DNA of 64,000 bases from Zoroaster sp. YZ-2022 (taxonomy: Eukaryota > Echinodermata > Asteroidea > Forcipulatida > Zoroasteridae). A program made the position numbers and the translations under genes. The notes beneath the pieces were generated by a model, which searched no databases, had not been told where the DNA came from, and was given only the letters and a program-made list of their open reading frames with translations. The DNA lies in contig CM055827.1 in NCBI GenBank assembly GCA_029582265.1, positions 2,837,423 through 2,901,422 of the forward strand. The letters are read 5' to 3'. Shown here piece by piece: positions 4,450 to 55,934 of this stretch (position 1 is the first letter of the stretch; every line of letters begins with the position of its first letter).

Positions 4450-4996
4450 TTTTAATAATAATAATAATGTATAGATTTATATAGCGCACGTATCCACCAA
4501 CTAAGTGGCGCTCAAGGCGCATTATATTATTATCCCTGCTCATAAGGCTCATAAGGCTCATAAGGCTCATAAATCATTCCTGAAACCATCTCAGCTCCCT
4601 GGGGAGTATACAGCTCAATTGCTGCCATTTCTAGCGCATATAGAGCAAACCATCTCTGCCTTCACAGGTACCCATTTAACCCCTGGGTGGAGAAGCAATT
4701 ATGGTTAAGTGTCTTGCTCAAGGACACAGGTGTCACGGCCAGGGCTCGAACCCACACTCTGCTGCTGGCAACACCAGAACTTGAGTTCAGTGCGCTAGAC
4801 CGCACGACAATCCACTTTACGTGCATTATACAACACACGGGACCTACGGCTTTACGTCCCATCCGAAGGACGAAGCAATTATGGTTAAGTACCTTGCTCA
4901 AGGACACAAGTGTCACGACCGGGGCTCGAACCCACACCCTGCTGCTGGCAACACCAGAACTTGAGTTCGGTGCGCTAGACCGCTCGGCCACGACAC
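4450..4996 (-). mobile_element. tRNA-Leu-derived SINE with duplicated head
   Basis: Read on the minus strand, this starts with a tRNA-like head: A-box-like TGGCCGAGCGGTCTAGCGC, a CAA-anticodon-like ACTCAAGTTC, and a B box GGGTTCGAGCCC. The SINE body and an ATT-repeat tail follow. The head and the CTTGAGCAAG stretch occur twice (about 4691-4812 and 4875-4996), separated by about 60 bp, so this is a double-headed copy. The short TCATAAGGC tandem at about 4539-4570 lies in the body. The same family recurs at 29.4, 55.9, 58.3 and 62.4 kb. Confidence 0.85.
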
Positions 4997-7623: not shown

Positions 7624-7854
7624 TTAACCAGTTCGCGTCGGGAATAAAAAAGTTTTTCTGGGCCCCTGTACGGGTTTCTTTTTCCCACACAAACACGTTA
7701 ATGGAAGCTTCCACAGCGCGTGGCCACGTCTACCGAGCATGTCACTGTACGCTCGGCTCGTTGCCACGTCAACCGAGCATGCATACAAATATTCCGGAGT
7801 TTCCTATGGTGTGTTTAGACGCTCTCCGATCTATGGTGTTCTATAATGGACACC
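7624..7854. mobile_element. Fragment of a TTAA-type element end
   Basis: TTAACCAGTTCGCGTCGGG at 7624 and the following ~65 bp match, in opposite orientation, the right end of the TTAA-flanked element at 32703-33307 (CCAGTTGACGTCGGGAAT and a T-rich run, then a GGTCCCC/GGGCCCC block and GCGGGTTT/ACGGGTTT). The partner end is not visible before the GGCGAC array begins at 7855. The fragment is either truncated or interrupted by the large element that starts there. Confidence 0.5.
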
Positions 7855-8506
7855 TACGCGGCGCCTTTTTTTTTCTACGCGGCGACTTTTTTTTTTACGC
7901 GGCGACTTTTTTTTTTTGGGCGGCGACTTTTTTTTTTTACGCGGCGACTTTTTTTTTTTGGACGGCGACTTTTTTTTTTTACGCGGCGACTTTTTTTGGA
8001 CGGCGACTTTTTTTTACGCGGCGACTTTTTTTTTTTGGGCGGCGACTTTTTTTTTTACGCGGCGACTTTTTTTTTTTGGACGGCGACTTTTTTTTTTTAC
8101 GCGGCGACTTTTTTTTTTGGACGGCGACTTTTTTTTTTACGCGGCGACTTTTTTTTTTTGGACGGCGACTTTTTTTTTTACGCGGCGACTTTTTTACGCT
8201 TTTTTTGGACGGCGACTTTTTTTTTGTCGGCGTCTTTTTTTTTTGCGGCGACTTTTTTTTTTTACGCGGCGACTTTTTTTTTTAACGCGGCGACTTTTTT
8301 TACGCGGCGACTTTTTTTTACGCGGCGACTTTTTTGGACGGCGACTTTTTTTTTGGACGGCGACTTTTTTTTTTACGCGGCGACTTTGACGGCGACTTTT
8401 TTTTTTTGGACGGCGACTTTTTTTTTTTACGCGGCGACTTTTTTTTTTTGGACGGCGACTTTTTTTTTTTACGCGGCGACTTTTTTTTTTTAGGCGGCGA
8501 CTTCCG
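7855..8506 (+). repeat. Left-end GGCGAC-T(n) array
   Basis: About 30 units alternate between TACGCGGCGAC and TGGACGGCGAC, each followed by roughly 7-12 T residues, for a typical unit of about 20 bp. Spacer length varies and a few units are degenerate (GTCGGCGTC at about 8227; CTTTGACGGCGAC at about 8386). The array creates long open frames in all three + frames; these are repeat artefacts and not genes. Such an array could hold many binding sites for a transposase, which is inference. Confidence 0.9.
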
Positions 8507-8625
8507 GGTTGATGAGTGTTTAGGGATTCCCGTACTCACGCGCATGCGCTGATAATAGTGGCTACTTCCGCATTTGTACTCGACTGCATGGCAGCAAGAT
8601 GGAATACAGCATTTTGAATCCATTG
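8507..8625 (+). repeat. Left inner terminal inverted repeat
   Basis: Matches the reverse complement of about 28036-28138 with small indels. It contains GTGTTTAGGGATTCCCGTAC, ACTCACGCGC, CTACTTCCGCATTTGTACTC and GACTGCATGGCAGCA. It probably includes promoter or 5' UTR sequence for the + strand integrase gene, since the mirror copy precedes the SAM-HECT gene. Confidence 0.8.
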
Positions 8626-9140
8626 GTTCCCGACCAGAGAGACAATATCCTTATTATAAAATGCCTTCATTCTGTATTCTTGCACAGTACAACTTTGTTG
8701 ATTTATACGGCCTGAAACGCAATTTAAAACTAAATCGATATTGCTTAACATAATTAAAACAATCGCACCATGTGAAAATTTACCGCTGTACATAATGACA
8801 GGAAAGGTTTTTATCGATGTTTAGTTTCATTGCTTATCTAAGTTCATGTAAAGTTCATGATAAGACCATCCTACTTTCATGATTTTAAGAATAAACATAA
8901 TTATGTGACAAAGACGACAATCCAAAATAAGATTGAATTCAAAACCCTCCTTTTTGTGATTTTAGACGCTGCAGGACACAATGTAGTCCCCCAGTGGACA
9001 TTATTAAACATATTGTAGGGGAAGCTAAGAGATAACTAAGCCAGAGTATTTTACAATAAAACGAAAAGTAAGGATCTATATTTTGTATTAAAAAAACTTA
9101 ACAAGCATGCAAGAGAAGGATTGGTGAGCCACTATTTTAG

Positions 9141-12100
9141 TGCAGGATACAGCTACCGTGAAATATGTTCTATTTTGTTTCTGCGGCATAACATCAATTG
9201 TTGGTGAGAATGCCTATCATTTTTAAATTGTTTGGCCTTTAAAATTATATTTTATTCATTTAAAGATAAAGTATAGCTTTGGTAATTGTTTGGTCAAAAC
9301 GTTCATAATTTATGTATAACAAATACGTAACCTGTGAAAATTTCAGCGTTTCCCGTCAGTATAAGCTTTATAGTTATTCGCTCGTCCGTTTGTTTGTCTT
9401 TTTCCCGTTACCAAAGGAATAATTTATAGTTTTTAAATATGGGGCGAAAGGCAAGAAAGAATGTATGCCACGTGACAAGGCGGGGACTAAGGAAACATAA
9501 TCAAATCTTAATTTTCCTACTTTGATGTTTCTTGTAGCACCAGAACAATTGGAAGGATTCTACGAAGGCTTAATTTGCGACGCAACAATCCAGCCGATGA
9601 AACATTCAACATATTTCTTACGTCTTTAGAAGTAAGTTGAATGAATGGAATGATCACTGGGAAAAGAGCACGGCACGTGGCCATTTGCTTTTTTCATAAA
9701 TATGTTTGTTTAAATTTACGTAAATCATTAATTGTCGTTATTATACTAATTCCTCTTTATAGCTATATATCTTTAGGTGTTTGAAATGTGTTGTGTAATT
9801 ATTCCTCTTGAATAGCCACCATTCAAAATTGTTTCCATGATTTACAAATAATTATCAAAATAAATATAACTTATGAAAACACACCCAGTTAACAAAACAA
9901 TTAACAAAAATTTATGAAAATAACCTTTGAAAAGAGAAAAAGTTCAGTCGACTTTCAAGCACAAACCAACCATGCTGATGAATCTGTAGGATATGCAATT
10001 TTTACTTTGCATAAATTAATTGCGTTAAAACAACAATATGGCAGGTGTGAATTTTATCTGTATATTCAGGGTCTGTATGGACACAGAGTTGTGTACATAT
10101 AAGGATTTCAATCAAAACAAAGTTCGTGGCAATGGTAACTAAAAACTCGGTCCCAAACCGATTTGGGACATTTTGTCTATTTCCCATTATTTATTTATGT
10201 ATATGACAACCGTAACTCACTGGTCGGTTGGGGGGGGGGGGGAGGTTGTCTTCAGAACCCTACCCTACACCATGGAGGTAGAATATGCCTACACCTACGG
10301 GCATTGACAGAGATAGGCTAATCATAATATTTTGACACATTATATAATCATAATGTTCATCAATAATGTTTCCAGATAGAACTACAAGGCAGTGGCAGAA
10401 ACCTTGGGTGCCGCTCGATGGGGCGAAGAATGCTTACTCGATATGGTATTCATGTGCCAAGGTAAACACAAATTACCAAGATGGGTGATTTAATGTAATA
10501 AAAATGATGTGTTATTAGTGACTGTAAGTACTATCGGTGTTTTATTATAACCCAATGATTAGATTAAAAAATTAAATTACAAAATATTTTAATTTATCAA
10601 ACCATTTTGGGAAACAAAAGTCAACTTCTTGTCCTAACTTTTCCTTAGAGATGCTGTCATTGAAGGCCAAAGGATGCTTGATCCCGAAGGCGTCGAAAGT
10701 CGTAGGAGGCACCGACTGAGACGACGAGAGTACAGAAATTTGGGACCTAATTATGCTCTCCACATAGATCAATACGACAAACTGAGAACTTACGGTTTTG
10801 GCATCCATGGCGCTATTGACGGGTATGACAATGATGAATGCAAATAATGTCCTTTCAAAAAATAGAACCATAATATGTTTATTAATGTGTAGATCAATAA
10901 AGGAATATTTGTTTGTCTGTTCGGTGCCCAATAGCCTCATCACAATTTCCACTGTGATATTAGGTGCACCTGGGGACACTGCTTTTCTGTGGGGAACATG
11001 TCGACGAGGCCCCATAGCTTGCCCACTGCGAAGAAGGAAGGAAACAATAAAACATAAAGTTTGAAGTCTTCTGGCCAAAGTGAAGGCCTATAAATGGAAA
11101 CATTACTTTTTAAATCCAGTTCAAACTTTTGAATGACTGTTGCCCTACCATGCATATGTTGTATTATTGATTTGTTGTCGATCAAATCATTTTGTTTAAA
11201 TGATTATCATACCCTTGACTCTGTAGATTTCCGAACAAAGGGTTTCAGAAAATTCCATGTGGTTTTTGTATTTCATGTATAATTTTGTAATTCATTATTT
11301 TAGTTTTTCCCGTCGATTGGTTTGGCTAAGAGTTGCAAGCACAAATCGAGATCCTACAGTGACAGCCTCATATTTCGTGGACTTTTTGAAAGAAATTCAA
11401 GGTGATGTATGGGGCTAATTAATTTTGGGTATTGATGATCTGAATATAATCTCAAAATCGTTTGTAAATTCATAAATCCATACATAAGAATGAAAATATA
11501 ACGTACAGAAGTTTTAGCTAGGCCTAACTTCTTTTTATCGTTTATGAAAAAATAATAAACAGTATTGTTTATATTACATTGTTAAATATCACGTAAATAC
11601 GATTATTTACATCAACAATTGTAACACAAGAACTCATTTCACATGATGTTTGTCATCATTACAATATCACAACGATCTAAGATTTAGAAATAATTTTGGA
11701 GTCTTACTAGTGGGATATTCAGTGGCTTAAACTGAAAAGGAGGTGCCAAAATAACATTCTAGAGTTACGGGGTAAAACTTGTTATGTTTTTTTTTTTTTT
11801 TTTTTTTTATACATTGAGCGAGTTCATCAACAGTATTTATCCCAATGTTTGTTTCTAATTTCAATGTTTTATTTATTTTATACTTCAGCTGTGCCACGTT
11901 GTATTCAGGTAGATAGGGGCACAGAGAATACACGCATTGCGGATATTCAAACTGCATTCCATGAGGAGTATTTCGCCCACCAACAGAGTCCTTGTGTGAT
12001 GTATTCAGCTTCTCCTCACAATCAGGTGCGTACACGGGGACTGTTACCTTAGGAAAACAAGATTCCCTTTTTTTTTTTCAACAATACTCATGCAAGTTTA

Positions 12101-12991
12101 AATATTTTTCTGCAGTGATAAGTGTCTCATTAATGTTTCATAAAACAGGTACCATTGCCCCATTGTAAGTTGTCCAGTAATAAATGAACAATTAATTTTT
12201 TTTTTTTAATTATTCAGAGAATTGAGAGATTTTGGCGAACATTGTTTGACATGATGGTGAACTACTGGTTAGACAGCTTCAGAAACTTGATTGAGATTGG
12301 CATTTTGGACTGCACATCGGCATTGCATAAGTATTTAATTTAACATTCATTTGTTACTTAAATTGGTTAAACTTCCCCTTTGAAATTGTGTGTATTTTAA
12401 ATTAAACACAATGAAAATATATTAAACCGTTTAATTTGTTTGCATATTTTAATTCCAACTATTAATCTTTGCAGGGAATGTCTGAGGTTTTCTTTCACAC
12501 AAATTATCCAATCTGAACTGGACGAGGTAAGAGTCGAGTGGAATCAGCACAGGACAAGGAATGTTACACGCGCTATTGCTCTCCCTGGAAAGCCGGACCT
12601 CATGTACTTTGTACCACATCTCTTTGGTACGATGATTAACACTTAAATTCAAAAAAAAATTGTCGCTAAAAATAAATAAACAGACCAGTAAAGAACTAAA
12701 ACAATAAACTAAAACAATCACATTGCCTAACATGAAAAATATATATAAATATATATTGTTTTATTTAAACTTTGTTTTAAAGGAGCACAAGACTTCCGTC
12801 TCCCCGTGCAAGTACAAGAAATTGTAGCTGTCAAACATGAATTTACGTCTTCACCATCAAGGAATGGATGCATTGAAGAATTTGAAGCCGTGTGCCAGGA
12901 CCTAATTCGCACTCATAACAAGGGAATGCCCTCATCGTTTGCAGAAGGCATAGAATTATTTCAGTGGCTGTTGGACAAAATGCAACCATAA
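9141..12991 (+). CDS. DDE (rve) integrase-like transposase gene, 9 exons visible
   Basis: Exons 9141-9203, 9538-9631, 10376-10461, 10649-10822, 11304-11401, 11889-12025, 12218-12330, 12475-12626 and 12783-12991 join in one frame with GT/AG borders to give 374 residues ending in TAA. Counting from the first full codon at 9142: residues 1-35 are helix-turn-helix-like (GYSYREIC...TRTIGRILRRLNLRR). An integrase core follows with the triad D121 (HIDQYDKL), D180 (QVDRGTEN) and E220 (QRIERFW), spacing 58 and 39. The C-terminal part holds WNQHRTR and PGKPDLMYFVPHLF. Known: many fish and marine invertebrate genomes carry multi-copy uncharacterised integrase-core proteins of this type. The triad is intact, so a catalytically competent transposase is plausible. 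The 5' exon with the start codon was not found; it should end with two bases of a split codon between about 8625 and 9130. Confidence 0.85.
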
Positions 12992-13596
12992 ATCGTCAAT
13001 CGTGATATTGTAATGTGTATTTTATACATAATTGAATAGATCACAGGGTAGAATACACAGTGTTTGTTTAAAACACTTAATTTCTCAATCACCATATTGA
13101 TTTAAAGCCAAATCTATAATGTGGTTTCTATATTGTGTAGCCAGCATGGATCTTTATATAAAACATTGTATAGCTCCATGTAAAGACTAAACATGTATGA
13201 TTGCAGGGGATATGTGCCCCAAAGCACCTCTACACTGTAGACAGTTGCGTACCTCGGGTTCCAAAATGCTGAAACATTAGTTCTCCGAAAATTTTCCATA
13301 AATTCTTTGAAAAGTCCCAACAAATTTATCTCAAAATTATTTTTAAAACTGAACCCATCAAAGCCTTAAACGGATTTTGGGGATGGAAGTCTTTAGTATA
13401 TTGCATGATTGAATGCATCAGGTCTGTGGGTTAAATTTCGCAATATGAAAAAAGCGCCTTATTATTATAAAGTATTTTGTAACAGTATTGTGTAGACAAC
13501 ATAACAGAAGCGGTTGACCAATGCATGACTGCAGTGGTATATACTCATGAGGGTGGTGATTCAAGTTTCTTTTGTAAATATTACTGAGGGTATATG

Positions 13597-13869
13597 TTTC
13601 TGTTTGCGGTAACACCATGTGATTATCCACTCTAGCTTAGTAGAATAGTTCTTAAAATAACTTATCTAACTTAAGTAGATAAGGGATCGGGGAATGATGC
13701 TAGTCAAAACGTTGAGACCACTTAGCGACATATCTCACTTAGCGACAGTGAAGATAATTACAAGAAGTCCCCCCATCCCTTATCTACTGAGCGACAGTAG
13801 ATTAGCATGATAAATTCTTTCAAGAACTATTCTGCGAGAGTAGATAATCACATGGTGTTACCGCAAACC
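13597..13869. mobile_element. MITE with ~50-bp inverted termini
   Basis: The left end GTTTGCGGTAACACCATGTG (13601) and the right end CACATGGTGTTACCGCAAAC (13849-13868) are inverted. The match continues through GATTATC(C/T)ACTCT and AGAATAGTTCTT for about 50 bp. Inside are inverted AAGTAGATAAGGGAT / ATCCCTTATCTACT stretches and repeats of CTTAGCGACA. Relatives sharing the CATGGYGTYACCGCAA end occur at 2.6, 21.1, 26.9, 35.2 and 45.5 kb. Confidence 0.75.
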
Positions 13870-14743
13870 AAAATCCTATAAATCTTTCATTACTGAGGGT
13901 GTTAACAAATTTATAAAAAAGTAGATATGGAGTATAATCTGATTGTGCAATTAACTTTTTAAGTCTTTAACGAGGTTAAACTTCAAATATGAACAGTAAC
14001 ACACTTTGGAACTAAAAACATTTTTAATATATGTGTTACAATGTGTACAAACATTATGTGAGAATACTGTGATAAAATCATGAACACTAACAATAAAAAT
14101 GGTTATATGTAGGCCTATACTGCATACATATAGATTAGAAAATACCCTTTCATACTTTTTCATGATTGAAAGGCACGTTTTACATACAGTACACAAACTT
14201 ATTTTATGACAACTGTGAAATTACACGCTTTCACCCTTGTTGATGAATACTGGCTTATTAACTGGCTTCCCCAATTGTCGTAATAAGGCACATGGGATCG
14301 GTTATTTCAGATCCCTTCTATGTAATTACAGTCAAAGATTACTTCTCTGACATCATCACTTAAACAATAAAAGTATGCAGCATATCCATTTTGTAAACGA
14401 GTCCACATTTAAAAAGAAACTCCTTCAAAGCCCCCCCCCCCTTACAAATGTAACCACAACAGTCTCTCTGTTATGAGAATAATGTTAGTTTGGTCCACTG
14501 AATTCATATTCCACTGGCGATTCTATATTGTGCTATCTCTGAACTGGTGTAAAAATACAGAAACTTAACAAATAAACATCACACAAATAGTAACTCAGAA
14601 CATGGACAGGATATTTTTCTGGAAAATATAAATCCGTCAAGAAAATAACAGAAACTATAGGCCTATTAGCAAAGACGATGGTGATTATCGCACTGAAATT
14701 TAGGCAGTTAATGATGATGGTTTAGATCTTTTATTATGTCATG

Positions 14744-14994
14744 CTATATTTTGCCAAAGCCATGGGCTCCTCGAACCGCATATTCCATCATATTCTGCAG
14801 CTCACTTGGATCATCAACCCCCCTGGGGAGTCGTAGTATCTGTGCACATGTTGAACTGCTTGGCAATCTCATGATGTTTGGTTCTCTTGTATAGAATTCA
14901 ATTTGTAAGTCATATGGAAACCCACAGGGTGGAATTGCGTTTGCTCCTGTCCAGAATTCAAGTACATTGGGGAGTGAGATCGCAGCTCGTCCAC
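14744..14994 (-). CDS. Last HECT exon carrying the catalytic cysteine
   Basis: Acceptor TTTCAG precedes the exon, which completes codon 562 and ends at the TAG stop (14744-14746). It encodes the HECT C-lobe: LEFWTGANAIPP, the cysteine loop LPSSSTCAQILRLPR (Cys611) and the C-terminal GAHGFGKI, which matches the usual FG-containing end of HECT domains. Because the YR element lies upstream in the transcript, this exon is cut off from the start codon in the present allele unless the whole insert is removed or spliced out. Confidence 0.85.
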
Positions 14995-17900
14995 CTGAAA
15001 TAAATTTTTGAAATTTGTTATGATTAATGTTAGTCTCTTTCCACAGTATATAGATTTAGAATTGTAGAACAACGGTCAGAGCTATAAACCTGAAACATGT
15101 AAAATAGTACAGTAATTTGCAATCCTTACTGTTGAAAAATAAAGTTTATACCAGGGCAGTCCAATATTTTTGGGGGATAATTCCGACTGACGCAGGGGTC
15201 AAAAGACGTCAGGGAGGTCAGGTCCACCTTGCTCCCTTACGAACTCCTGAAAATGACACTTTGTGTAAGATTTTTTGCATAGAAATATACAAATGAAACA
15301 AAAAACAAACAAACGAACACAGGCCGGGGAAGATGCAGGGCTTTCATTATTTTGTTGTTGTTGCGTTAGCAGACATTTTGGCTACAAAAAGGCAATTTTA
15401 GCTAAAATATTTGTTTTCTTAGAATTTTTATTGCGATAATTGCAGATCAACTATTTTCCAGATGCATCTAAAAAAGTTTCACATTTTATTTATTTATAAA
15501 ATAATTTACTATTTAATTAATTAATTGGGTGGGGGGGCTGTACAAATTGGTGTGGCGAAAGCTCCCCCCTAGAGAAATGTGGTTTTTACATTTAACACCA
15601 AGGTTCAAATTTGTTGTGACCTAAAACTTTTGGTTATTAATATTGTAATGAAAAGTATGGACGGATCCATACAGACAATGTAGGGTGTGGGGGGAGGGGT
15701 GTGACACAGCAACTATAAAGGGACACCAAAAACCTATAGGGAATTCTACACAGGGCGAGGAAAAATGAGGGGAACATCCCTCTTCGCCCTATACCCCAAT
15801 GAATCCACCGCTTTTGTTTTTTGTTGATATTTACTTGAATTGAGCATCCCACGGTCAGCAAATTATAATTTAACTTACTTGATGCCTTCTCTAGGAACAC
15901 TTCGAAACAGTAAACTGTGTCTTCCTCCAAAGTGTGATTATTTGAGCCAAGAGGTGCATAGTCGATATTGTACAACTTCCTCATATCACAGAATGTCAAG
16001 GGCGGTAAAGCCTTCCACACAAAAAGTGGGCGGACGGAATGTGCATTTCTTCCCTAAACACGCATACATGTAACAAAGAACAACCAGGACACCAGAATGC
16101 GTTTGTGTTGGTGTATTCGGCACAATTGACTGACTGTCTGACAAACACTCTGACAAATTAACATTCGGCTCATTAATTTGTAATAAATTAATACATTATG
16201 TAAAATTTAACAAGATTACGGAACAAGACAGTGCTGTAAGCCGACTACGAAAAACTCACCCTGTCTTTTTTTCTTTTCCTACAGGATGAGAAACGTAGGT
16301 CTGATTCATGCGTTACAGCCAGTCCCAGACAGGACATGTTCCTTGTTAGGTTTTTTACTCAATTTTCCTTATGCTACGATATCGATAGTAGTAAAACAAT
16401 AATCACAAGCCAAGTGATTTTGATACTGATAACATATCACTGACGCTATCGTTGACATACCCGTCTTTCGCATTCTCGGACTTCCACCGTCCGTGTCTCT
16501 TAAATAATCTATCTGGAACGCCCGATTGTGCGGCAACCGTGGCACCCCCTGCCCTGAGACTATGCAATCCAAACTTGGAAACATCATCCACTACCGGCCG
16601 AAGGGCGTCTAATACCACTTCTCTGACACGGGTATATGACATAGGCTGATTGGTTTCTCTAAGTTTGTAGCCTTCTCTTACTTTTGATAAGCTACGGAAT
16701 ATAAATGAATCTGGACTTTGGACCTGGGCAAGTGATATATATGTCTTAAGCATTTCAACTGGGCAATATTTGGAATAAGATTTACTTATAACAAGTGACC
16801 TTCCTTCATGATAAATATCCGTTTTGCTTGATGGAATAGACAATTTTAAACCTTGGTCGTTAAATGTGACATGACCTAACCGTATGGATGAAAGTTCATT
16901 AAACCTGAGGAAACCCGAGTAAGCTAGAAGACACATTACAACTGTCCTTATAGACATTAGATTAACTACTGTAAGGTCTGAATGTTGCTTAATATGCAAG
17001 TCTACCATCTCTCTTAATATACAAGGGGTTACAGGTTCTTTTTTCTGTTTAGGTATCGAAAGTGATCTTCGGAGCCCTTCCGAAGTATATTTAACTGTAG
17101 GCGATTGAGTGGGATCATCAACTCCAGCTGTCTTGTGAGCCCATGAAATAGCCGATATGGCTTTAATTATGGGGGCTGGTGAACGACATGACTTACTGAG
17201 AACAACTAGATACAATGAAATATGGTAGGGGTGTGCCTGAATAGATTTCATATCATATTTCTTTGCCCATTCAGACCACTTATTAAATGCGCACGAATAT
17301 GCCTTAACTGTGGAATCTGCTCTTGACTTTAGGATAATTTGTGGTAACTCTTCAGCAAGATCTCTCAGATCGTCGCAAATGTCCTGTCGCTTTTCTGTCC
17401 ATATGCCACTGTCGAATATGACCTGTGAAATGCGTAAACACCGAAATATACATGTATGTTAAAGTTACTTCCTTAAATGTTATTTGTATCTGTAAAATCC
17501 AACCTCAGTGCTAGAATTTTGCTTCTGACAATATTGCCGAGAAATTCAATATTTCCTCCTCTACCCGGAATAAAAATTCCGCTGTCTCTTGGAATTTCAT
17601 AAATTTCTACCACTGCTCTTATTGGATTATAACCGTCTGGGAAGAGCATCGGCCAATATGGCGCAGAAAACCATCGTGGACAAATCAATGTCCCAACTAT
17701 ACCTTTGTATTTTCCATGTGTTTAAGGACTCTGGGTATCAAAGAGATTGGGGGAACAACCCAATTGTTTTCATCTTTCCAGTTAACTGTAAATGCGTCTA
17801 TTTCTTCGCATCCTGGATTCCAATACCGGGAATTGAATCGAGGGTTTTTGTTATTGTAGTAACTGGCAAATCTGTCCACAGAATGTGGACCCCATAGATT

Positions 17901-20900
17901 ATCCAGAAACAAAAAAACTTGTTCCGAGACTGCCCAATCATCTTGATCAATAATTCTACTAAGTTTATCTGCTCTCTCGTTTTTTGTTCTTGGGACCCAT
18001 TCCATTTCGATGTGAATATTATGACACAGACATGTCTTACAAATACTCAAAGCAATCTCCTGTAAATCTTCCTTCATACTGCCTCTGGTTGTTATTCTAA
18101 CAACAGCCTGGTTATCTGTAAACCACTTAGTCCTTCGGCAGGACAATTTTGTTACAATAGACTTGAGAACTAAATCTACCGCCTTAAGCTCTCTCCATGT
18201 GGAGCTCTTTTTGGCGTCATTGCCATCCCACATACCTTGAACAGTTTCTTCTCCTGTATCTACCAGATACCCACCAAAACCTGTGGAACTTGCGTCCGAG
18301 TAAACTATCTTAGAGCATTCCTTGCGAATTCCTATCGCACCTACATTCATTGTATCTATGTTCCTCCTCCAGAAGTCCAGCTCACTCTCTGCGTCTGCTG
18401 AAACGCTTACCTTTGAATCCCACGCGAACCTAGATTCAATGCACAAATTCAAATATTTGGTCATTACATTAGACACATTGCCCGTTACCAAATTGGTTGA
18501 TATTATTTTACCTACAAGTCTGGCCAGAGACCTTGCTGTCGTTATACCTGAACTGATTGATTGTATTTCTTGTTTTATGCTCAAAATGCATCTCTGTGGT
18601 ACACAGAAAAACCCCGATTCTAAATTTATTTCATAACCTAACCATACTGCCGACTTTGCTGGTGTCCAAACACTTTTGAACATTAGAATAAAACCTGAGC
18701 GGATAATATCTTCTTTCACCTGTTTACTGGCTAATAACGCTTCTGATAAGGTAGGTGCAAAACCTAAACCATCGTCTAGGTAAACTAATATTGATTTACC
18801 TTCACCCCGCCACTTTTTTACTAGCGGTCTCATGAGTTTTGTAAATATAAACGGTGCAGAAGACAGGCCGAAGGGAAGCTGTTTGAACCTATAGAATGAC
18901 TGCACTCCTTGAACTTCCCATGCGAAACCCAAGTACTTCACATGTTGTGGCCATACGTCAACATGGTGATAACCTGATTTGAGATCAAACTTGAAAACAT
19001 AACCACCCTTTCGTAAAAACATGAGCGCAGTGCGCATGTCTTCATATTTTACGGACACTTTCTCCAAATATTCGTTAAGTAACCTCAGGTCCAAGATCAG
19101 ACGTTTCTTTTCGTTACTCTGAACTGATACTGTTAGGGGACTAACAACCTTGGGTCTGACCTTTGTCACCTCTATAGTACCTAATTTAAGTAAATCTAGA
19201 ATAGCTTTGATGACAAATTGTTTATGATTCAAGGACGATTTGTTGTTTTTGCTAAGCATAGCCGGGGGCTCAGAATGAAGAGGTAATATATAACCTTGTT
19301 CCACAACTTTTAATATAAATCAGGTGCAGAAATAGACCGCCAAAATAAACTATGATCTCTCAACCTGCCTGCAACTTTGATACTTAGCTCTGCATTTTGT
19401 TCATATTCAAAATAGTTATCAACTACATATTGAGGGTGAAAATCTGTATTTTCTATATCACAATCTTCAGCAGACTTAACTTTAATGGCCTGACGTTCCT
19501 GCGACTGCGGTTGATGGCTTGAGGAAATTGAATCTGGTTGGGCATGTCGCCTTCCAGTGAGTGAAGCTGCCACACACGAAGCATGCTCCTCCTCTAACTC
19601 TGTTGAGACTGGTATCATATGGGGAAAATTGACCTGAGCGACGAAAAGAACTACCGCTACTACCAGCGGGCTCCATGTTCCCGCTGTTATCCCACTTAAA
19701 CCGCTTCTGTTGCTGAGCTGATGTCGATGCGGCCACTTTCTTTTGCTTGATCTTCCTTCCAGCCCTGTTGATTTTCTGATCGTCATCATCATCTGCTAGC
19801 TGATGTGCCTCGTACTCGGAGACTGTGGCCCAGCCGTAAGTACTAGAATCTGCCAATCTGATCAATTTCTGACGTCTATCTATAAGTGCGACTGCATTCT
19901 TCAAATCGGCTTGTAGATCCAGCTGAGCCGAGTCGCTGCAGTCATCTGCTTTCTCAAGAGCTGACTGAATGGTATCTCTAACTTCTGTGTAAGAAGATTA
20001 TGAAACCCAATTGCCATCATTATATATAATTTTATATAAATTAGTATTTATATATTTTTTAAGGTGTGGAACTCGTGCCGTACCAACGTGAAGTGAAGAC
20101 CTTACAACACTGCCCACTACTTAAGTACTTGCTCATGCACCGTGAAGAAAGCAAATATATTCTAATTCGCACCTGGTCGCTCAACCGAATATATTTAAAT
20201 TTCTTCCCTAAACACGCATACATGTAACAAAGAACAACCAGGACACCAGAATGCGTTTGTGTTGGTGTATTCGGCACAAACACTTGAAGGTTAAAGAAGG
20301 TTGAAGGGTAAATTTTAATTGGGGCTTTTAAATCCACAATCAACCTAATTTGATAACACATGTTACACTTCATTGATACTTGCAGGTTAAACTCAAACTG
20401 CCTCTGATTTCCCTCTCTACGCCACTTAGCTTTTGTTGCGTCCTTCAACTTCTGCGTCAGCGAAAGTGTCGATTTGGAATGCAAATCCAAAAACTCTGCT
20501 TTGGTGTTGCTTAGTTTTCGATCGAAGACTTGCGAAAACTCCGATAGCATAGACCTGATGTCTTCCTTGGTAGCTGGTTGGTCGTTGTTGGACATTATTG
20601 GTTGCAACATAGTCGTGTATAAGGTGTAAAATAAATGTCGATTGCATGAGATTTTTTAAGGTGTGGAACTCGTGCCGTACCAACGTGAAGTGAAGACCTT
20701 ACAACACTGCCCACTACTTAAGTACTTGCTCATGCACCGTGAAGAAAGCAAATATATTCTAATTCGCACCTGGTCGCTCAACCGAATATATTTAAATTTC
20801 TCTTCACATCTTCCCAGAGTGTCCCAAGGCCCTCTTGAAATTGCACAATAGCTGGTTGTACCCTACGGAAATAATTTATTAAAATTACATACCAAGATCC

Positions 20901-23900
20901 AAGTGAGACATACCTTTTGAAAACAAGGTTCCATAAAAATAAGGTAAGTCTGTATTTGCTAAAACATGAAACAAATTATATACAAACTATTCTTTCATAC
21001 AATATTAAATATTTTTATGCCTAAGATGTACTATCTACTTTGTAGTTGTACCACCAGTTCTTTTCAGAACTTATTACTACTCAATTGAGATTCCACATGG
21101 TGTCACCGCAATTAGTCTTACTTATCTACTTTGTTGTTCATTGTTAAAATAAATGTCCAATTGAACATCAGCAAACTGAAATGTCAAAACATTATTGTTA
21201 TTTTTTTATTTTATTTTTTTTATTTTTTGGGGTTGAATGTCATCAGCCTACTCAATGAAAACCATCTAATATCACAGGCATACCTGTAGTACATGAAATG
21301 AGTCAACAGATCTCGGGTTAGAGTATCACGATGTCTGAACGTACATGTATGTACATTTGACACCCCTTGGTCGATGAGCCAGTCGGTTAGCTGTGAAATC
21401 ACGTCATCAAAGTTGTCCGATGTACTCTTCATTATCTAAAATGAATTGTGTTAAAATATAATTTTCTTTAAAAAGAGAAATACATATTATTAAACAGATG
21501 GATGAAATGAGGAAAGGAGTGAGGAATTAGATTCCAGTGAAGTGCTTATACAAATTAGTATGGTTTAGTGGTGCACCATATGCAGCCTCATATTAATTAA
21601 AACAGTTTCCTCAAACTGACATGGTATAATTATTTCATTTGATGAATGCACTACATGTATTATTATCTGTAAACCAAGTAAGCTTCAAGCAATAATTATT
21701 CAGTTGAGTCTGGTCATTTTGGCACATTACCCAAACTACCATATCTTCTCAGTGCATTGATATGTGTGATAAATATCAAGATTACACACTCGCTGTCTCG
21801 GTGATAGTTTATTTCATAATTGAAAAGCATGTTCACTGAACATTGCAGGTGAACATGTTCATCCAAACATTTTCATTTCATGAACTGCTGTCTTCTTTTT
21901 TCATGACGAAGATACCTACAAATATAGCCTGTTTTCAAAATGAAGAAAAGTGCATACATCAAGAAAGATAATTTCGCTATACCTTCTTCAGATTTTCCCG
22001 TGAGACTTGGTCAGGTACATCATGTATCTCCTCTAAGTCTATTTCTGTGGAACTCTGAGTCATCAAGTTGAACACGCATGGACTTAGAGCACAAAGCCCA
22101 GGTCCACCATGAATTAGGCTCCAGCGGACAAACTGACCGGCAAGTGTATACTTCCCTTCTCTGAGGCTCTGGATACTGTACGTAAAATACAGTTTACCAT
22201 TAATGTTGTCAAACACTCCCATTCTTTGCGAAACATCTTGCATCAGAAGCCTGCAGGTGTTACAAATATAGGCTTGTAAGAGAAATACGAGTATCAGAAA
22301 TGTAAGCAGTGGTTACAAAATTATGACATTTTTCCCTTCAATGACATGCTTTTATACGCATTCCAAAGACAATGGGAAAAAGCACAGATGAGTCATTTGG
22401 GATTCGAACCCATGACCTTCTGTATAGAGCAGTGAAAACATCAGCTTCTCTTTATGTATCGTTTACGAGAAAATGTATTTAACTTTTTGGTATGTATTAA
22501 TGGTGCAAAAATTTTCATGCGCATGCACATATTATCACTGTTTTCTTGAAAAATACATCATATCAGATGATATAACTTGACGTGATGATTGTTCCATTAC
22601 CATCTTTCAAGCAAGTGAGTTTTTATAAATATTCTGTAAAATTATTATTGAACAATGCCACTAACTTGAAAAACTCTCTTCTAGGGCCTTCTTTTGTGGC
22701 AAGAAGTGTGGAGTGAAGAAGTCGCTTCCGGTTGATAATGACTGTTGTTTGGTCACCTGTTCGTTTACTGATATGTCGTTGCAATATATCCTCCAAACTT
22801 TCATATGGTCTATACACAACAAAAATAACAGTCTCATGATATACTTAAAACATCAATTTCAGAATGTTTGCAAAACATTTCTTTTTTAAAGAGTTTGCAT
22901 CTTGTAATGGATTATAATATCTAACGTGACTCTTAAGATATGATTTTTTGAAATTATTACAGTTTGATTTACATTAATTTCACACCATGTGATGTCATCA
23001 TGATGTGTTGACTTTGAAGTGAATCAAGAAATCATAATTATTTCTTTATGTAAAGTTTCAGACCTCCAAGTTAAAAACTAAAACCGCAGTATTGCTAAAG
23101 ATGCTAAACTTTGTTTGTATCAGGATGATCAGTATTTTTTGGTTATGAAGAAACTCAAAGAATTAGGTCACACCCTATGTCATTTTGTAGCATAATATTC
23201 AAGACTTTTCATATGTAAAAAAATTGTAACATTATATAATGTTGTTCATAAGATATGATTTTTGGAAACATTAAACTTTGATTTTAATAGTGTAATTTGA
23301 CACCTGATGACACATTTAAACAGTTAATCTACAGGTTAATTTACAAGTTGAGGTCTATGTACATGTCAAGTAAAGTCTGTATGAAAAACATTGGTGAGAA
23401 GGTTCGAGGAGAAGAAGAAAGCAAGGGAAATCTTTTTAGTAAAAATGTGTTTAGTAACCAAATGGGCTTACATTTCTGCAGAGGCCTCAGCAGTAGAATT
23501 GATGGCATGTGAGACATGCATGGTCTGTTCATCCTCTGTGTCATCACCATCCTCAATCACATTCATGTAATTACTATAAGGGCTGTTGTTTTGTGAGGAT
23601 GTGGATGCTGCCTGAAAGTACATATAGGTGAAACACTTTGTACAATATGCATGCTTACAAATTATATTTAAAGTGCAACTTTACATATTTTATCAAATAT
23701 CTATGCTTGATGGCTTAAAACTAAGTTGGCAGTCTTTGTGTAATAAAGTTAAGGGGGGGATGTTGTGTGAGTTCATAGGAATTCAGCAGTGGAAATGTAA
23801 ACAAAAAGAAAAATAAAATGCCCAAGAACTTAGGTTACCTCTAATTATTTACGACTATTATCTAAGACACACATCTAACAAGGCAATTCACAACAATGTC

Positions 23901-26900
23901 TAGAACTACCTTTTGAAAATGAAAAAATCTTTCACAAACCTGAACCACAATTCTGAATTGCTGCCTAGGAGGATAACATCATTTTTGTTCTCATATGATA
24001 GTTCATTTGCACAAAAACCCACAAATTGGGAATTAAAATCTAAAGTCTTGTCAGTATAGCTACAAGGCTATATTGACAGGGGGAAAACAAGCTTTTACTT
24101 TTTATATACTTAAAACATAATTTTAAAACAATCACAGAAAACAGTATAAAACATGAACCTCTGATTTTAAATTGTTTATAAAATGTTGTATTGTAGGATG
24201 GAGGTTTCCTTCATCCTTGATTGTAGCAATACAACATAATATGCTTCCTCTGACTGCACTGCACCAAATGGCTGTTAGGATCCCAAAATGTTGAGTCCCT
24301 CCTGAAAACAGTATAAAAACAGGCCCACAAAAGTATCCCAAAAACATGATGAAAACATGTTCCTACTGAGGATTGTGACTGACGGTTGTTTTTAATAAAG
24401 AAAACCAAAATCAAATTTCATTGAAATCTATTCGAATGTAATAACACCGATTTTATTTTTCATATGTCAGACAATAAGGCCTAACTTTTGATAAATTATC
24501 AATGGTGTACAGGTGGAGTCCATGTTCTAAATTTGGGAAATGCTATTACCATGAATGTCACTGTTGGAGTATTTGGTTGTATAATCGGTGACTGTGTTCC
24601 TTCAACTATGCTGTCAGCACCCTGTCAACAAAATAAACAATAAAGTATAAGCAAATAAGCACACAAAATACTGTCCAAATATTGTTTACATTAAAACATA
24701 TAAATATGATATGACCATTAAGATTACCTGTTTAATATTTCTTAGAACAAACTCATTTTCTTAAAATGTTAATTTCTTTCATTATAAACAAATACAAATA
24801 CAAACCTCATTGCACGTTGTTCTAGTTCGTCTAAATATTTCGGGAAGTTCGTTTTCCTCATCTGATGAGAACATCTGTTAAAAGAATGGGAGTGTTTATA
24901 TAGGCCTACTTATACATGTAATTCATAAAATGCACGATTGTAGGTTCAATAAACAGACTCTTTGTATAAAATAACAATAGACCAATTATTTTATGAGAGT
25001 GAATACACAACTTGTAAATTTATCATCCAATCACAATGCTACATTACATATAGAGAGGCCATTACAAGTTTAGCAAATAATTGATGTATTTTCACAATAC
25101 CTCTTCCATGAAAGTAGTTTCAAGATACACACGGACAGGATGCGTCTTAATGTATGTGAAAAACTCGCCCATGGAAAAAGGATTTCCGTTGATTATTTTT
25201 GGAAGCTCTTCTCCATTAAAGGTGGAAAGTTTGGAGATCAAATCACTCAGCAATAAGTCATTTGCTTTGTTGATTCCGCCTGGGAAATACACGTTTTGAA
25301 TAAGCTCCAGAACAGTCTCCAATGAAGCATCTCGCTCCACATCTAGTTTCAAAGATCCACCACCTTTTGCTGCTGTTACCATCTTGTGTGTACTTCCATC
25401 TTTATCTTTATGCTTCCACCCTGTCTGGATACGTAGCGTTTTGGACTTGGTCTTTCCAGATGGTTGTTGTTGCCGCTTGCTTTGAAACATGGTCCTTAGT
25501 CTATGAACTACAGGTAGAGCACTTGATTGCTCTGAAGATAAAACAAGAGATGACAAGGAATGAATAACAGACCACCAAAATATGTGCACTGTAATAACTT
25601 ATGTGAGTGGCTTACAAGTGATTTGTGGATAAAACACTATCCCATGGGAATATGCAAATAATGAAAGTTGGAATATGACTTTTCATACCTTGGCACAGTA
25701 TATTTTAAAATGTTTAAAGATGAGGTTCCATTTCATGAAAAGCATCAAAAAGTAGTTTTTTATGTACTTATTAGTTATGTGAAGGGAAACAGGTCAACTT
25801 CTACCCCAGCCAACTTGTACCCCTGCCAACTCGTACCCCAAACCATCAAGGCCTATATTAAACAAACTTTGTAGAAAGAAGTCTTTTTAGAACACTTCTT
25901 TTACAGGATAAAATCCAATATTAATTCACTTTATCTACTTCCAGGGTGGGGAACAAAATTTAATTTCCAAAGAGGAAATCGTTTTTATTAAACTTTAATA
26001 AATGATAACTTTGAGAGAAAAGCAAACCCTTGAAATATTTCATACAATTAATTCATATTACTTTAAAATCGGCGAGCGGCAGCAGAGACAACACAAAGAT
26101 TACGAGTTGGTAAGGGTGAGAGTTGCCTGTTAAAAGATAAAGTGCAGCTTTGGTGATTGCATGGTTAATTTATCCATTCCATCGAACGCAGTAATCATAC
26201 TTACTGTCTATGCTCTCCTTGCATTTTTGTTTGATTCTGACTCTGTCTCCAACTTTGCAAACACCAAGTAACCCAAACTCGGTATCTGTTAAACAAACGG
26301 CTTCTTTTGGGCTGACCTATGAAACAAATATTGATACAGTGAACATTGGCAATAAACTTGGATGGAAAGAATTATTGTTTTAAGCCAGCACTGCATTCCA
26401 AAAAAATGGCATCTGTGCCACCAATGTACATATTTAAAAATATACTACTTTTTATCGTTTATTTGTAACACCAGGTTATTCATCGTGAAGGAGATACAGC
26501 CTGAAAGAACCGTATCACATTGTATTCAACCTCGTTGCGAGTAGTTCAGGAGACCATACCGTTTTCTCACGCAGTGAATATGGTTCAGGAGAACATGACT
26601 TACGGGTTAATCAGGGAAGATTTTCACGCCTGATAGCCTGCCTAATCTTCTCCTGAAGAAGATTAGAGCAGGCTAATCGAAACGTAAAGAATAACCTGTG
26701 AAGTCCCTATGGTTCTCCCTGAACCATATTAACCCGTGAAGTCCCCATGGTTCTCCCTGAACCATATTTCTCACTTAGCGACAGTAGAGAAAAACGAGTT
26801 GCCCGAAATTGGTTCTCCCTTGAACCTTTCTCACTTAACGAAGGTTGAGATACGAGTTGTGCGATACGGTTCTTTTCAGAACCTGTATCTCAGCTTCACG

Positions 26901-27520
26901 TTAGTTGAGATAAACACATGGCGTTACCGCAAACCGAAACGATATCGATATTCCACCATGCAAAGCCTCAAAACTTATATACTACTTTTTACTCTAATAC
27001 TCCGCAATAAGAACAATGTCATTTTCTTCTGAAAGTCACCTCTTCTTAACCTTGAGACTAAGGAATCACTTGACCTTAACCCTCAAAGAGCCAGGCTTTT
27101 TATGACCTTCTCACCTCAGTCAGTCAAAATAGGGCTAAAAGGTCAGCCGAAAAAGTCATAAAGCCTATAGGCTTAACATGGGGGGAAAATGCACTGCCAC
27201 ATTATCACAATGGGGGTGGATTCCGCCCCTGGTTCTTTGAGGGTTATAGAACATTCCCAGAAACTGGCAGTAACTTTTCCTCCCAATCTCATAACCATTC
27301 CATCTTTGTGTAGACTCAGTCTCTTCCCTATTTCAAAGGTTTCAACAGAGCAACAGACCAGTGTCGGATTGTCACCACTTCTAGATAACAATAAATAGTA
27401 GGCTAATCAACTTCAAGTGGAAAAAATACAGCTACACTTGGAGAATGTGTGACTCACCTGGTTCACTGCAAATGTATCTATTATGTGCTCCAAGCCGAGT
27501 GCTGATAGTATCTCATCCAT
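14744..27520 (-). CDS. SAM-HECT E3 ubiquitin ligase-like gene (split by insertion)
   Basis: Coding exons on the minus strand: 27520-27458, 26316-26205, 25531-25101, 24874-24806, 24621-24550, 23611-23472, 22809-22666, 22250-21983, 21435-21284, 20862-20802 plus 16044-15879 (one exon split by the retrotransposon), and 14994-14744. With the insert left out and one 6-bp core kept, they total 1,935 nt: 644 residues and a stop, in frame at every junction. Residues 1-58 form a SAM-like domain (LSALGLEHIIDTF...LGVCKVGDRVRI). About 75-200 match the GGGS-containing region of G2E3-like invertebrate proteins (AAKGGGSLKLDVERD). About 210-295 is an acidic linker. The HECT domain spans about 297-644 (GPRREFFK; RWSLIHGGPG; LEFWTGANAIPP) with catalytic Cys611 in SSSTCAQILRLP. 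HECT ligases carry ubiquitin as a thioester on that cysteine. With the insert present, the frame reaches a stop six codons past residue 506, before Cys611. Confidence 0.85.
16045..16125 (-). repeat. B2 terminal repeat of YR element
   Basis: The 81-bp unit runs from the ATTTCT core to GGCACAA. It is identical to the internal copy at 20199-20279. It lies just downstream of the recombinase stop in the element's orientation. Confidence 0.95.
16403..17422 (-). CDS. Tyrosine recombinase of YR retrotransposon
   Basis: The frame is open from a 3'-splice-like TTTCACAG at 17423-17430 to the stop at 16403. The first ATG is at 17251, but the in-frame sequence before it (EKRQDICDDL, ADSTVKAYSCAFNKWSEW) is the expected SAM-like core-binding domain, so translation must enter upstream, by splicing or frameshifting. 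Numbered from the ATG, the catalytic residues are R116 (GFLRFNEL), K143 (SSKTD), H230 and R233 (GLHSLRAGG), H253 (RHGRW) and Y265 (KDGYV). All are present, so the enzyme looks competent. Its role is to recombine the circular cDNA into the target through the short ATTTCT core. Confidence 0.9.
   Translation of the reverse strand, partial: VIFDSGIWTEKRQDICDDLRDLAEELPQIILKSRADSTVKAYSCAFNKWSEWAKKYDMKSIQAHPYHISLYLVVLSKSCRSPAPIIKAISAISWAHKTAGVDDPTQSPTVKYTSEGLRRSLSIPKQKKEPVTPCILREMVDLHIKQHSDLTVVNLMSIRTVVMCLLAYSGFLRFNELSSIRLGHVTFNDQGLKLSIPSSKTDIYHEGRSLVISKSYSKYCPVEMLKTYISLAQVQSPDSFIFRSLSKVREGYKLRETNQPMSYTRVREVVLDALRPVVDDVSKFGLHSLRAGGATVAAQSGVPDRLFKRHGRWKSENAKDGYVNDSVSDMLSVSKSLGL
17473..19400 (-). CDS. 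Reverse transcriptase-RNase H of YR retrotransposon
   Basis: The main open frame is 17697-19304. Numbered from its first Met: motif A FKFDLKSGYHH (about 105-114), motif B LPFGLSSAPF (about 143-152), motif C VYLDDGLGF (about 174-182). RNase H acidic residues are D338 (YSDASSTGFGG), E373 (WRELKAV), D398 (TDNQAV) and D447 (NERADKLSR). A stop follows MENTK at 17697, but another frame then continues the family's usual sequence (GTLICPRWFSAPYWPML, ending LALRLDF at about 17490). A single missing base near 17697-17702 explains this. A second one-base break lies at about 19318-19322, between SAPD and FILKVVEQGY at the gag/pol boundary. Because the repeats are identical, these may be recent mutations or sequencing indels. 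Confidence 0.88.
19310..20610 (-). CDS. Gag-like ORF1 of YR retrotransposon, split by the B1-A2 module
   Basis: The N-terminal part (start at 20610, or more likely 20595) encodes NNDQPATKEDIRSML and ends in REGNQRQFEFNLQ at about 20382. The family sequence resumes at about 19982 with VRDTIQSALEKADD, then LIDRRQKLIRLADSS and YGWATVSEYE, and a CCHC knuckle CFVCGSFTHWKATC (C-x2-C-x4-H-x4-C). Between lie 397 bp bounded by a direct ACTT (AAGT on this strand). They contain B1 and A2 with flanks, and begin with a GTATCA donor-like site and end with TTCTTACACAG. Canonical GT-AG removal would take 395 or 398 bases, one off the frame, so an intron is plausible but not proven. The pol-frame overlap (19310-19500) carries AGRLRDHSLFWRSISAPD. 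Confidence 0.75.
20054..20279 (-). repeat. Internal B1-A2 module of YR element
   Basis: A2 (20054-20204) and B1 (20199-20279) overlap in the ATTTCT core and are identical to the two terminal repeats. In split-direct-repeat elements this internal junction is thought to template circle formation. In described Ngaro elements it lies near the 3' end after the ORFs; here it lies inside gag. Confidence 0.92.
20651..20801 (-). repeat. A1 terminal repeat of YR element
   Basis: The 151-bp unit from ATTTTTTAAGGTGTGG to the ATTTCT core is identical to 20054-20204. It probably contains the element promoter, because gag starts 40-56 bp inside it. Confidence 0.93.
21040..21135. repeat. Half MITE with CATGGTGTCACCGCAA end
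   Basis: It contains AGTTCTTTTCAGAACTTATT and CCACATGGTGTCACCGCAA. Both are features of the MITE family at 13.6 and 26.9 kb. No clear opposite end is present. It lies in a HECT-gene intron. Confidence 0.5.
22385..22445 (-). repeat. tRNA-derived SINE remnant
   Basis: On the minus strand the stretch carries a B-box-like TGGGTTCGAATCCCA preceded by AGAAGGTCA. It does not fold into a full tRNA by eye and lacks an A box. It lies in an intron of the SAM-HECT gene. Confidence 0.4.
25785..25850 (-). repeat. Short TACGAGTTGG tandem
   Basis: On the minus strand, units of about 17-18 bp (GGGTACGAGTTGGCAGG) repeat roughly three times. Similar units occur outside the right end of the large element at 28360-28495. 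Confidence 0.6.
26560..26940. mobile_element. Foldback/MITE-rich segment
   Basis: It contains near-direct repeats of GGTTCTCCCTGAACCATA, inverted AATCTTCTCCTGAAG / GAAGATTAGAGCAGGC pieces, CTTAGCGACAGTAGAG and a right end ACATGGCGTTACCGCAAAC. These are the motifs of the 13.6-kb MITE family. It lies in the first intron of the SAM-HECT gene. Confidence 0.55.
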
Positions 27521-28035
27521 TTTACTGTATGAAACATGAGGAATAATAAAACATAATCATGTAAGCAGATTCATTGTTACAATATAGAGGGCGCACCTCA
27601 GATATGCATTGTGTGCACAATAAACTGCGACCAGTACAGACTACTTAATTTGGAATACTACTACTATAGAAACACAAGGGGAAATACAACCAAAACAAAA
27701 TAAAGGAGTGCAGGGTAGAGGTAAATTCTTGAAAAAAGGGACACACCACTAACTAGTAAACCTAACAAATAACATTTTATCATTATGGCCCGTCTTGTTT
27801 TTAATACAGGGCCACCAAACTTTACAAATGAGGAAAATCATTACCATCCCAGCAGCCAAGCAAACCCAAAGCCCTCTTTAGAATGAAACCAAAAAGATTA
27901 TTCTCATCAGAGCAATTTTAAATAATAAATGTTCATGATTAGCATTAACGTTAAACATGATTAGCATAATTTTTGTATAGGCCTATAGTATAGTGCTTAT
28001 CTCTTACCCCACAATATGTATAATGCGTTAGTTGG

Positions 28036-28138
28036 GAAGTATGGATTCATCGTGCTGCCATGCAGTCGTTAGAGTACAAATGCGGAAGTAGATCAGTTAA
28101 GCGCATTGCGCGTGAGTAACCTGTACGGGAATCCCTAA
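28036..28138 (-). repeat. Right inner terminal inverted repeat
   Basis: Reverse complement of 8507-8625 with small indels. It starts about 0.5 kb upstream of the SAM-HECT ATG, so it may carry that gene's promoter. Confidence 0.8.
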
Positions 28139-28330
28139 ACACTCAACAACCCGGAAGTCGCCGCCCAAAAACAAAAAGTCGCCGCGTAAAAAAAAAAAGT
28201 CGCCGTCCCCCCAAAAAAAGTCGCCGTCCAAAAAAAAAAAGTCGCCGCGTAAAAAAAAAAAGTCGCCGTCCAAAAAAAAAAAGTCGCCGCGTAAAAAAAA
28301 AAAAAGTCGCCGCGTAAAAAAAAAAAGTTC
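28139..28330 (-). repeat. Right-end GTCGCC-A(n) array
   Basis: Eight units of GTCGCC followed by GCGT, GTCC or GCCC and an A run; the mirror image of the left array. The last GCGTA ends at 28316 and is followed by A11 and then GTTCATAAAAAT, where the similarity ends. Confidence 0.9.
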
Positions 28331-29400: not shown

Positions 29401-29437
29401 ATGATGTAAAATGATTAACAAATATGCAAATATGGGG

Positions 29438-29792
29438 TGTCGTGGCCGAGCGGTCTAGCTTACCGGATTCAAGTTCTGGTGTTAGCAACATAATGTGGGT
29501 TCGAATCACGGCCGTGACACTTGTGTCCTTGAGCAAGACACTTAATCACAATTGCTTCTCTCCACCCAGGGGTTAAATGGGTACCTGTGAAGGCAGAGTT
29601 GGTTTGCTCTATATGCGCTAGAAATGGCAGCAATTGAGTTGTATACTCCCCAGGGAGCTGAGATGGTTTCAGGAATGATTTATGAGCCTTATGAGCAGGG
29701 ATAATAATATAATGCGCCTTGAGCACCACTTAGTTGGTGGATACGTGCGCTATATAAATCCACACATTATTATTATTATTATTATTATTATT
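29438..29792 (+). mobile_element. tRNA-Leu-derived SINE
   Basis: Head GTCGTGGCCGAGCGGTCTAG with B box GGGTTCGAATC, body (CTTGAGCAAGACAC, CCACCCAGGGGTTAAATGGG, CTCCCCAGGGAGCTGAG), then GTGCGCTATATAAAT and an (ATT)9-10 tail. The orientation is the same as the 62.4-kb copy. Confidence 0.88.
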
Positions 29793-37017: not shown

Positions 37018-37195
37018 AAGGCGACGCGCGCGACGGTCGACGGTCAACGGTCGACGGGCGACGGTCGACGGGCGACGCGCGACAGGCGCACAGGCGACAG
37101 GCGACGGGTCACACGAAGGCGCACGGGCAAGCAACGGGCGACGGTGACGGGCGACGGGCGACGTTTAGAAGGGCGACGGGCGATGTTTAGAATGG
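37018..37195 (+). repeat. GC-rich CGACGGGCGA minisatellite
   Basis: Degenerate units of 7-12 bp (GACGGTCGACGG, GACGGGCGA, GACAGGCG) start immediately after the gap and fade at TTTAGAATGGC. Such GC-rich repeats often break assemblies, which may explain the gap. Confidence 0.85.
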
Positions 37196-55795: not shown

Positions 55796-55934
55796 AAAGT
55801 GCAGCTAGAGTAGGAGGGTTAATTCTTATTGATCTGTGTCCATTTTGATTGATGGCTGTTGTGTTGGATACATATAGCATACTATACTGCATGTATGCAA
55901 ATGACAGAGTAAAATATGGTTTGCAGGTAACACC

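Follow-up and report, generated by a model that had tools for sequence, protein, structure and literature searches.

We analysed a 64,000-nucleotide stretch of the genome of the sea star Zoroaster sp. YZ-2022 (GenBank assembly GCA_029582265.1, contig CM055827.1, positions 2,837,423 to 2,901,422 of the forward strand; hereafter the window), in which two inverted, arrayed ends enclose an integrase-type DDE transposase gene on the forward strand and a SAM-like/HECT ubiquitin-ligase gene on the reverse strand (Table 1). Both genes are rich in introns and they converge between the ends, as a first-pass annotation made from the letters of the window alone had already described. The window holds, we consider with a probability of about 0.85, a damaged member of a young, multi-copy family of cut-and-paste DNA transposons that are of the IS3EU type and have foldback-like ends. 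The integrase and the HECT ligase almost certainly belong to one and the same mobile unit, a two-gene transposon. The first-pass annotation had given this element a length of 20 kb; its description as a unit bounded by terminal inverted repeats (TIRs) stands, but the length included a retroelement nested in the HECT gene. Minus that retroelement the window copy measures ~15.7 kb, matching the 15.5-15.9 kb of complete copies without a large insertion elsewhere in the genome.

Table 1. Features of the transposon copy in the window (positions count from the first letter of the window).
Feature	Position	Strand	Remarks
Left terminus	7832..7854	+	23 bp, TATGGTG...; homology of other copies stops here
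Left outer array	7855..8503	+	~31 units, mostly 20-21 bp, GGCGAC-type
Left inner domain	8504..8610	+	unique sequence matching the right inner domain
Possible integrase first exon (uncertain)	8600..8676	+	open ATG frame adjoining the left end; splice sites unsettled
Integrase-type DDE transposase gene	9043..12991	+	nine exons as drawn; open frame of 407 aa
Integrase exons 1-5 as drawn	9043-9203, 9538-9631, 10376-10461, 10649-10822, 11304-11401	+	
Integrase exons 6-9 as drawn	11889-12025, 12218-12330, 12475-12626, 12783-12991	+	
SAM-like/HECT ubiquitin-ligase gene	14747..27520	-	eleven coding exons in the model; exon 10 interrupted, exon 7 short
Tyrosine-recombinase (DIRS/PAT-like) retroelement	16045..20801	-	nested in HECT exon 10; foreign to the transposon
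Predicted non-coding HECT first exon	28008..28108	-	begins in the right inverted end; start approximate
Right inner domain	28047..28154	-	unique sequence matching the left inner domain
Right outer array	28155..28330	-	8 units, ends inside a unit; 23-bp terminus missing

Each complete end of the family consists of a 23-bp terminus beginning with TATGG, an array of ~21-bp units and an inner domain of ~110 bp. The two inner domains of the window still match each other when the arrays are excluded (E 8.7e-11 and 8.4e-8; of 105 gap-free columns 101 are identical, and 31 further columns are gaps). With ≤3 mismatches allowed, an 18-base piece of the inner domain is found nowhere in the window but at these two ends. 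The inverted pair is real and no by-product of low-complexity sequence, and the ends of array plus unique inner sequence that were recognised at first pass are borne out both by repeat searches and by the array-free match. Both outer boundaries, however, differ from those first drawn. The left end had been placed at 7855, where the array begins; the true end is 7832, since a 23-bp terminal segment outside the array (TATGGTGTTCTATAATGGACACC) is common to the other copies, and homology beyond the array ends at this position. The same 23 bp, with ≤4 errors, stand at the outer end in 27 of 30 loci fetched from the genome (see below). The right boundary breaks off partway through an array unit, near 28330, and is without the 23-bp terminus. 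In the copies measured each arm carries 10 to 41 units, which are spaced by 20-21 bp, or two turns of DNA, in 259 of 323 cases and which each contain a T-tract; the ends may therefore be intrinsically curved. Single-strand folding of the left inner domain gave no signal (z 0.33). Outside the element, a degenerate GGCGACG repeat at 37020-37196, adjoining a 500-bp assembly gap, has the GGCGAC core in common with the transposon array, and no inner-domain or unit-plus-T-tract match was found in it.

The product of the integrase gene is matched by the Pfam family rva_4 (E 5.3e-32) and weakly by an IS481 transposase model (E 9.8e-6, far below the cut-off of the model), and the computed spacing of its DDE triad, 58 and 39 residues (DD58D39E), agrees with the D121, D180 and E220 read at first pass. 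No zinc-finger match was found for this protein in Pfam, and no OTU or Ulp1 domain was matched in either the integrase or the HECT protein. Across eight copies (the window and seven others from the same genome) the integrase frame is open in two, the window and C7a; it is shifted in C19a and C9a and broken by stops in C18a and C1b, whilst C4a and C2b lack exons in the stretch read. The exon boundary at 9043 is not a proper acceptor and the protein start is tentative; the candidate first exon adjoining the left end is nearly unchanged in four of the five copies looked at.

Pfam recognised the HECT domain (E 1.5e-13 when the insert was masked as X), and its catalytic cysteine, the presence of which had been noted at first pass, aligns with those of AREL1 and E6AP. 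The N-terminus is SAM-like, with a weak Pfam SAM match (E 0.03-0.13, below the cut-off) and ten weak matches to solved structures (best E 0.026), nine of them to proteins known to contain SAM domains. Both genes had been described as intact in frame, which holds for the integrase, with its first exon unsettled, and fails for the HECT gene. The ~4.76-kb retroelement splits exon 10 of the window copy, whereas C19a, C4a, C2b and C9a, the four further copies with sequence for this exon, have it in one piece; exon 7 of the window copy is 60-63 bp shorter than in each of the six others for which it could be mapped. The N-lobe of C2b, exon-7 segment included, was recognised among solved HECT structures (E6AP, E 7e-5), and that of the window, with its short exon 7, found no match among them. 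Translation of the HECT gene starts at 27520, ~0.8 kb inside the right end and not ~0.5 kb as first described; a non-coding first exon within the right end is a prediction, the donor site of which, at 28008, scores in the top ~1% of GT sites in the window. Near 24.2 kb several copies have an open frame that might be a further exon, although the splice phases do not match. In C2a the HECT frame is open in the six exons mapped.

The retroelement nested in the window copy has RVT_1 and Phage_integrase matches (reverse transcriptase and tyrosine recombinase) and split direct repeats that are 100% identical, and no target duplication is visible around it. Its internal repeat block (20054-20279) does not follow the recombinase gene but separates two gag-like frames.

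Copies of the transposon were sought in the host's own assembly (1.0 Gb, 616 contigs) using the right inner domain as query, which gave at least 50 matches (40 of 139 candidates scored). Thirty loci were fetched, the window itself being one of them, and 20 weaker matches were left aside. From 26 of the 30 right ends the sequence runs on into the HECT side of the element, and four are short forms. The view that these ends do not occur mainly as short miniature inverted-repeat transposable elements (MITEs) holds for the loci fetched; several of the 20 weaker matches show a close inverted spacing that suggests more short forms. By comparison of their flanks, 23 of the 26 HECT-side loci trace back to 16 separate insertions, of which five recur at two to four duplicated sites; the remaining three (the window, L024 and L029) have no detectable right terminus. 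From ten of the right ends the sequence was followed inwards for 20 kb (23 kb in one case), and both integrase and HECT exons were found in seven of these regions, convergent in every case, which supports the proposal made at first pass that the two genes are carried jointly on one transposon. Two of the seven are incomplete: the 3' half of HECT was not found in C7a, nor were the first four integrase exons in C2b.

Shared flanks of 93-99.7% identity, some of them inverted, were observed for L004/L005, L006/L019, L007/L018, L009/L015/L022/L023, L014/L026 and L027/L028; such sets are either haplotypes left uncollapsed in the assembly or segmental duplications that include the element. L012 is an internal-deletion copy, in which a match to 28328-27290 is joined directly to one to 15097-14325 with most of HECT removed. 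In the gene-less short forms L025, L027, L028 and L030 both inverted ends lie within ~0.5-0.75 kb, and these are likely MITEs moved by the same transposase. No relatives of the element were found in viral contigs, using exact short patterns that are sensitive to close relatives only, or in prokaryote contigs, and tblastn searches of the integrase against plasmids and phages and of the HECT protein against phages gave no matches.

Target-site duplications, which the first-pass annotation had looked to the other copies to provide, are perfect and 6 bp long at five of the six long copies with two ends, namely C7a (11,507 bp, TGCTAG), C19a (15,908 bp, GTAAAG), C18a (15,522 bp including 500 N, AGGCCT), C1b (15,660 bp, TAAAAC) and C4a (21,276 bp with ~6 kb extra between two HECT exons, GTCCGC), and all five read TATGG..CCATA at both ends. 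Three short forms have both ends in view; two of them carry perfect 6-bp duplications, one of these having a degenerate left terminus, and in the third 5 of 6 bases agree. Because the five long copies have perfect duplications, which stand in for empty sites, we conclude that the two-gene unit moves as one. Taken by itself, the window, which has just one pair of ends and shows no duplication, could also be a chance neighbourhood in which unrelated inverted repeats happen to enclose a relic integrase and a HECT gene of the host. This is refuted by the copies, a multi-copy two-gene unit with shared termini and five perfect 6-bp duplications, and we regard it as vanishingly improbable.

The termini, the duplication length and the transposase type together place the family very probably in IS3EU. 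The published elements are compared here as they are described in the available parts of the papers cited. IS3EU/GingerRoot elements lack an HHCC domain, have TA..TA termini and an IS3/IS481-like catalytic core, and usually make 6-bp duplications (PMC10045372); the present family has TATGG..CCATA termini, 6-bp duplications at long copies and short forms (not visible at the window copy) and a transposase with an IS3/IS481-like DDE core and no HHCC zinc domain. Fungal IS3EU families with a TET gene likewise have TAYGG..CCRTA ends, 6-bp duplications and a second gene, for an alpha-kinase, opposite the transposase, but their cargo is alpha-kinase and TET/JBP rather than HECT, their hosts are fungi, and neither long end arrays nor HECT are mentioned in the part of the paper available (PMC12730594). 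Styx, an IS3EU-like element mobile in the wheat pathogen Zymoseptoria, shares with the window element an IS3EU-type transposase, 6-bp duplications, several coding sequences and recent activity, and differs from it in its length of 7.9 kb and its four coding sequences; neither HECT nor ubiquitin is mentioned in its text as available (PMC10853768) or in the available text of PMC10045372. IS481EU elements also have a transposase distantly related to IS481, whereas their termini are TNT..AYA or TGT..ACA, their duplications ~4, 15 or 25 bp, their TIRs mostly <50 bp and their proteins single (PMC10045372). Membership of IS481EU was rejected on the TATGG..CCATA ends and 6-bp duplications of the present family.

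The ends also have the anatomy of foldback elements, being built of a flanking domain, an outer domain of tandem arrays and an inner domain, as are those of Tetris (PMC4079207, in the part available). This would suit a foldback of another superfamily, Mutator-like or resembling the sea urchin TU elements, that merely contains an integrase gene; no paper on TU elements was found in the literature searched. Tetris, which has been suggested to be a Mutator element, differs from the window element in its duplications of 8-10 bp, its ~220-bp units and its absence of conserved open reading frames (PMC4079207), whereas here the duplications are 6 bp, the ends are TATGG..CCATA and an IS481-like/rva_4 transposase lies inside. 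We consider a foldback of another superfamily improbable, and membership of the foldback/Mutator superfamily was set aside on duplication length and termini.

As an IS3EU transposon with accessory genes the element is of a known kind, and its cargo, a HECT ubiquitin ligase, appears to be new. No ubiquitin ligase was found as cargo of IS3EU or of any DNA transposon in the literature searched, Repbase Reports and subscription papers being outside its scope. Ginger1 elements also combine an integrase-type DDE transposase with ubiquitin-pathway enzymes, but in these OTU/Ulp1 proteases are fused to the transposase, the duplications are 4-bp CCGG/CCGT and the integrase is Gypsy-like with an H2C2 finger (PMC2836005). 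Ginger1 membership was rejected, the duplications here being 6 bp and varied and no OTU/Ulp1 match having been obtained. The OTU and Ulp1 domains suggested to the authors of Ginger1, in the portion of the paper available, that the ubiquitin pathway is widely involved in transposition (PMC2836005). Within this pathway, a ligase encoded by a gene of its own would act in the opposite direction to the Ginger1 proteases.

Pairwise identity among the eight copies is 98.7-100% in exons and 98.8-99.8% in introns (introns that exceed 1600 bp, contain N or are of very different length being omitted), and the likeness of the exons points to a recent spread of the family. The family also looks recently active, given the ~99% likeness of its copies and the existence of short forms that lack genes but have the same ends, and it is open to direct tests of the use of the ligase to the transposon. 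Differences shared between copies are too few to judge selection by, with non-synonymous or stop changes standing to synonymous ones as 2 to 1 in the integrase and 3 to 2 in HECT exons 1-9.

Several observations weigh against the interpretation of the window as a copy of a mobile, two-gene IS3EU transposon. In three of the ten regions read (C2a, C1a and C13a) the integrase was not found within 20 kb. The sixth two-ended long copy, C9a (L039/L040; 16,848 bp), has mutually reverse-complementary flanks and no duplication, which could follow recombination between inverted copies. At the window copy no target-site duplication is seen at the array edges, because the right end breaks off partway through an array unit and the true left terminus lies 23 bp beyond the array. 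The HECT frame is open through all eleven exons in none of the eight copies scored, and copy-private differences give no signal of purifying selection in either gene: non-synonymous or stop changes outnumber synonymous ones by 19 to 2 in the integrase and by 26 to 3 in HECT exons 1-9, where ~3 to 1 is expected under neutrality. With no open HECT frame among the copies scored and no signal of purifying selection, the ligase may or may not still function at present. The decay of HECT does not argue against a function, since the transposase gene undergoes like decay; both genes deteriorate once inserted, the family is too young to show selection, and this pattern speaks neither for nor against a function of the ligase.

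Alternatively, the HECT gene could be a passenger: a founder copy would have picked up a host gene on one occasion, and its descendants would have kept that gene ever since without its playing any part in transposition. We treat this as a serious possibility falling somewhat short of even odds. The missing purifying selection and the want of an open HECT frame among the copies scored agree with this, as does the existence of gene-less short forms, the ends alone being mobile when transposase is supplied. Set against it are the gene's own slot and orientation, with a predicted first exon in the inverted end, its position next to most of the fetched ends (26 of 30) and the like decay of the transposase gene after insertion; fungal IS3EU elements, too, carry a gene opposite the transposase (PMC12730594, in the part available). 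That the ligase has some useful role for the element we judge to be about an even bet, any one specific target being far less probable.

If the IS3EU assignment is correct, the transposase would recognise the termini or the arrayed units and join DNA in the manner of an IS3/retroviral-type integrase, as its family suggests; by analogy it would act on the TA ends, and the arrays might offer repeated binding sites. Arrayed repeats have been proposed as binding sites for the foldback Galileo (cited in PMC4079207, in the part available). To judge from the anatomy of the element, promoters may lie in or beside both inner domains, so that the two genes would be co-expressed. Speculatively, the ligase could be functional and assist the element by tagging either the transposase or a host protein involved in silencing or repair for degradation.

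With this element a ubiquitin-attaching enzyme joins the accessory functions of DNA transposons, beside the ubiquitin/SUMO proteases fused to Ginger1 and the TET dioxygenases and kinases of fungal IS3EU. We regard it as rather unlikely, though worth stating, that the element represents an animal IS3EU lineage with a dedicated HECT ligase in the slot of the fungal alpha-kinase/TET genes, serving as an anti-silencing or transposase-control factor, and that this lineage is the source of the many uncharacterised SAM-HECT genes of fish and marine invertebrates that were mentioned at first pass, some of them perhaps domesticated. Were the pairing to hold in other animals, many G2E3-like and integrase-core annotations would be transposon genes and not host gene-family expansions.

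Elsewhere in the window, a search of Rfam returned no match at the gathering threshold. A family of ~350 bp resembling short interspersed nuclear elements is present at 4453-4838, 29432-29788, 55934-56306, 58300-58527 and 62335-62714, and two of these repeats flank the transposon in inverted orientation, by coincidence. A satellite array occupies 51005-52279, with 29 copies of a 44-bp unit at 97% matches.

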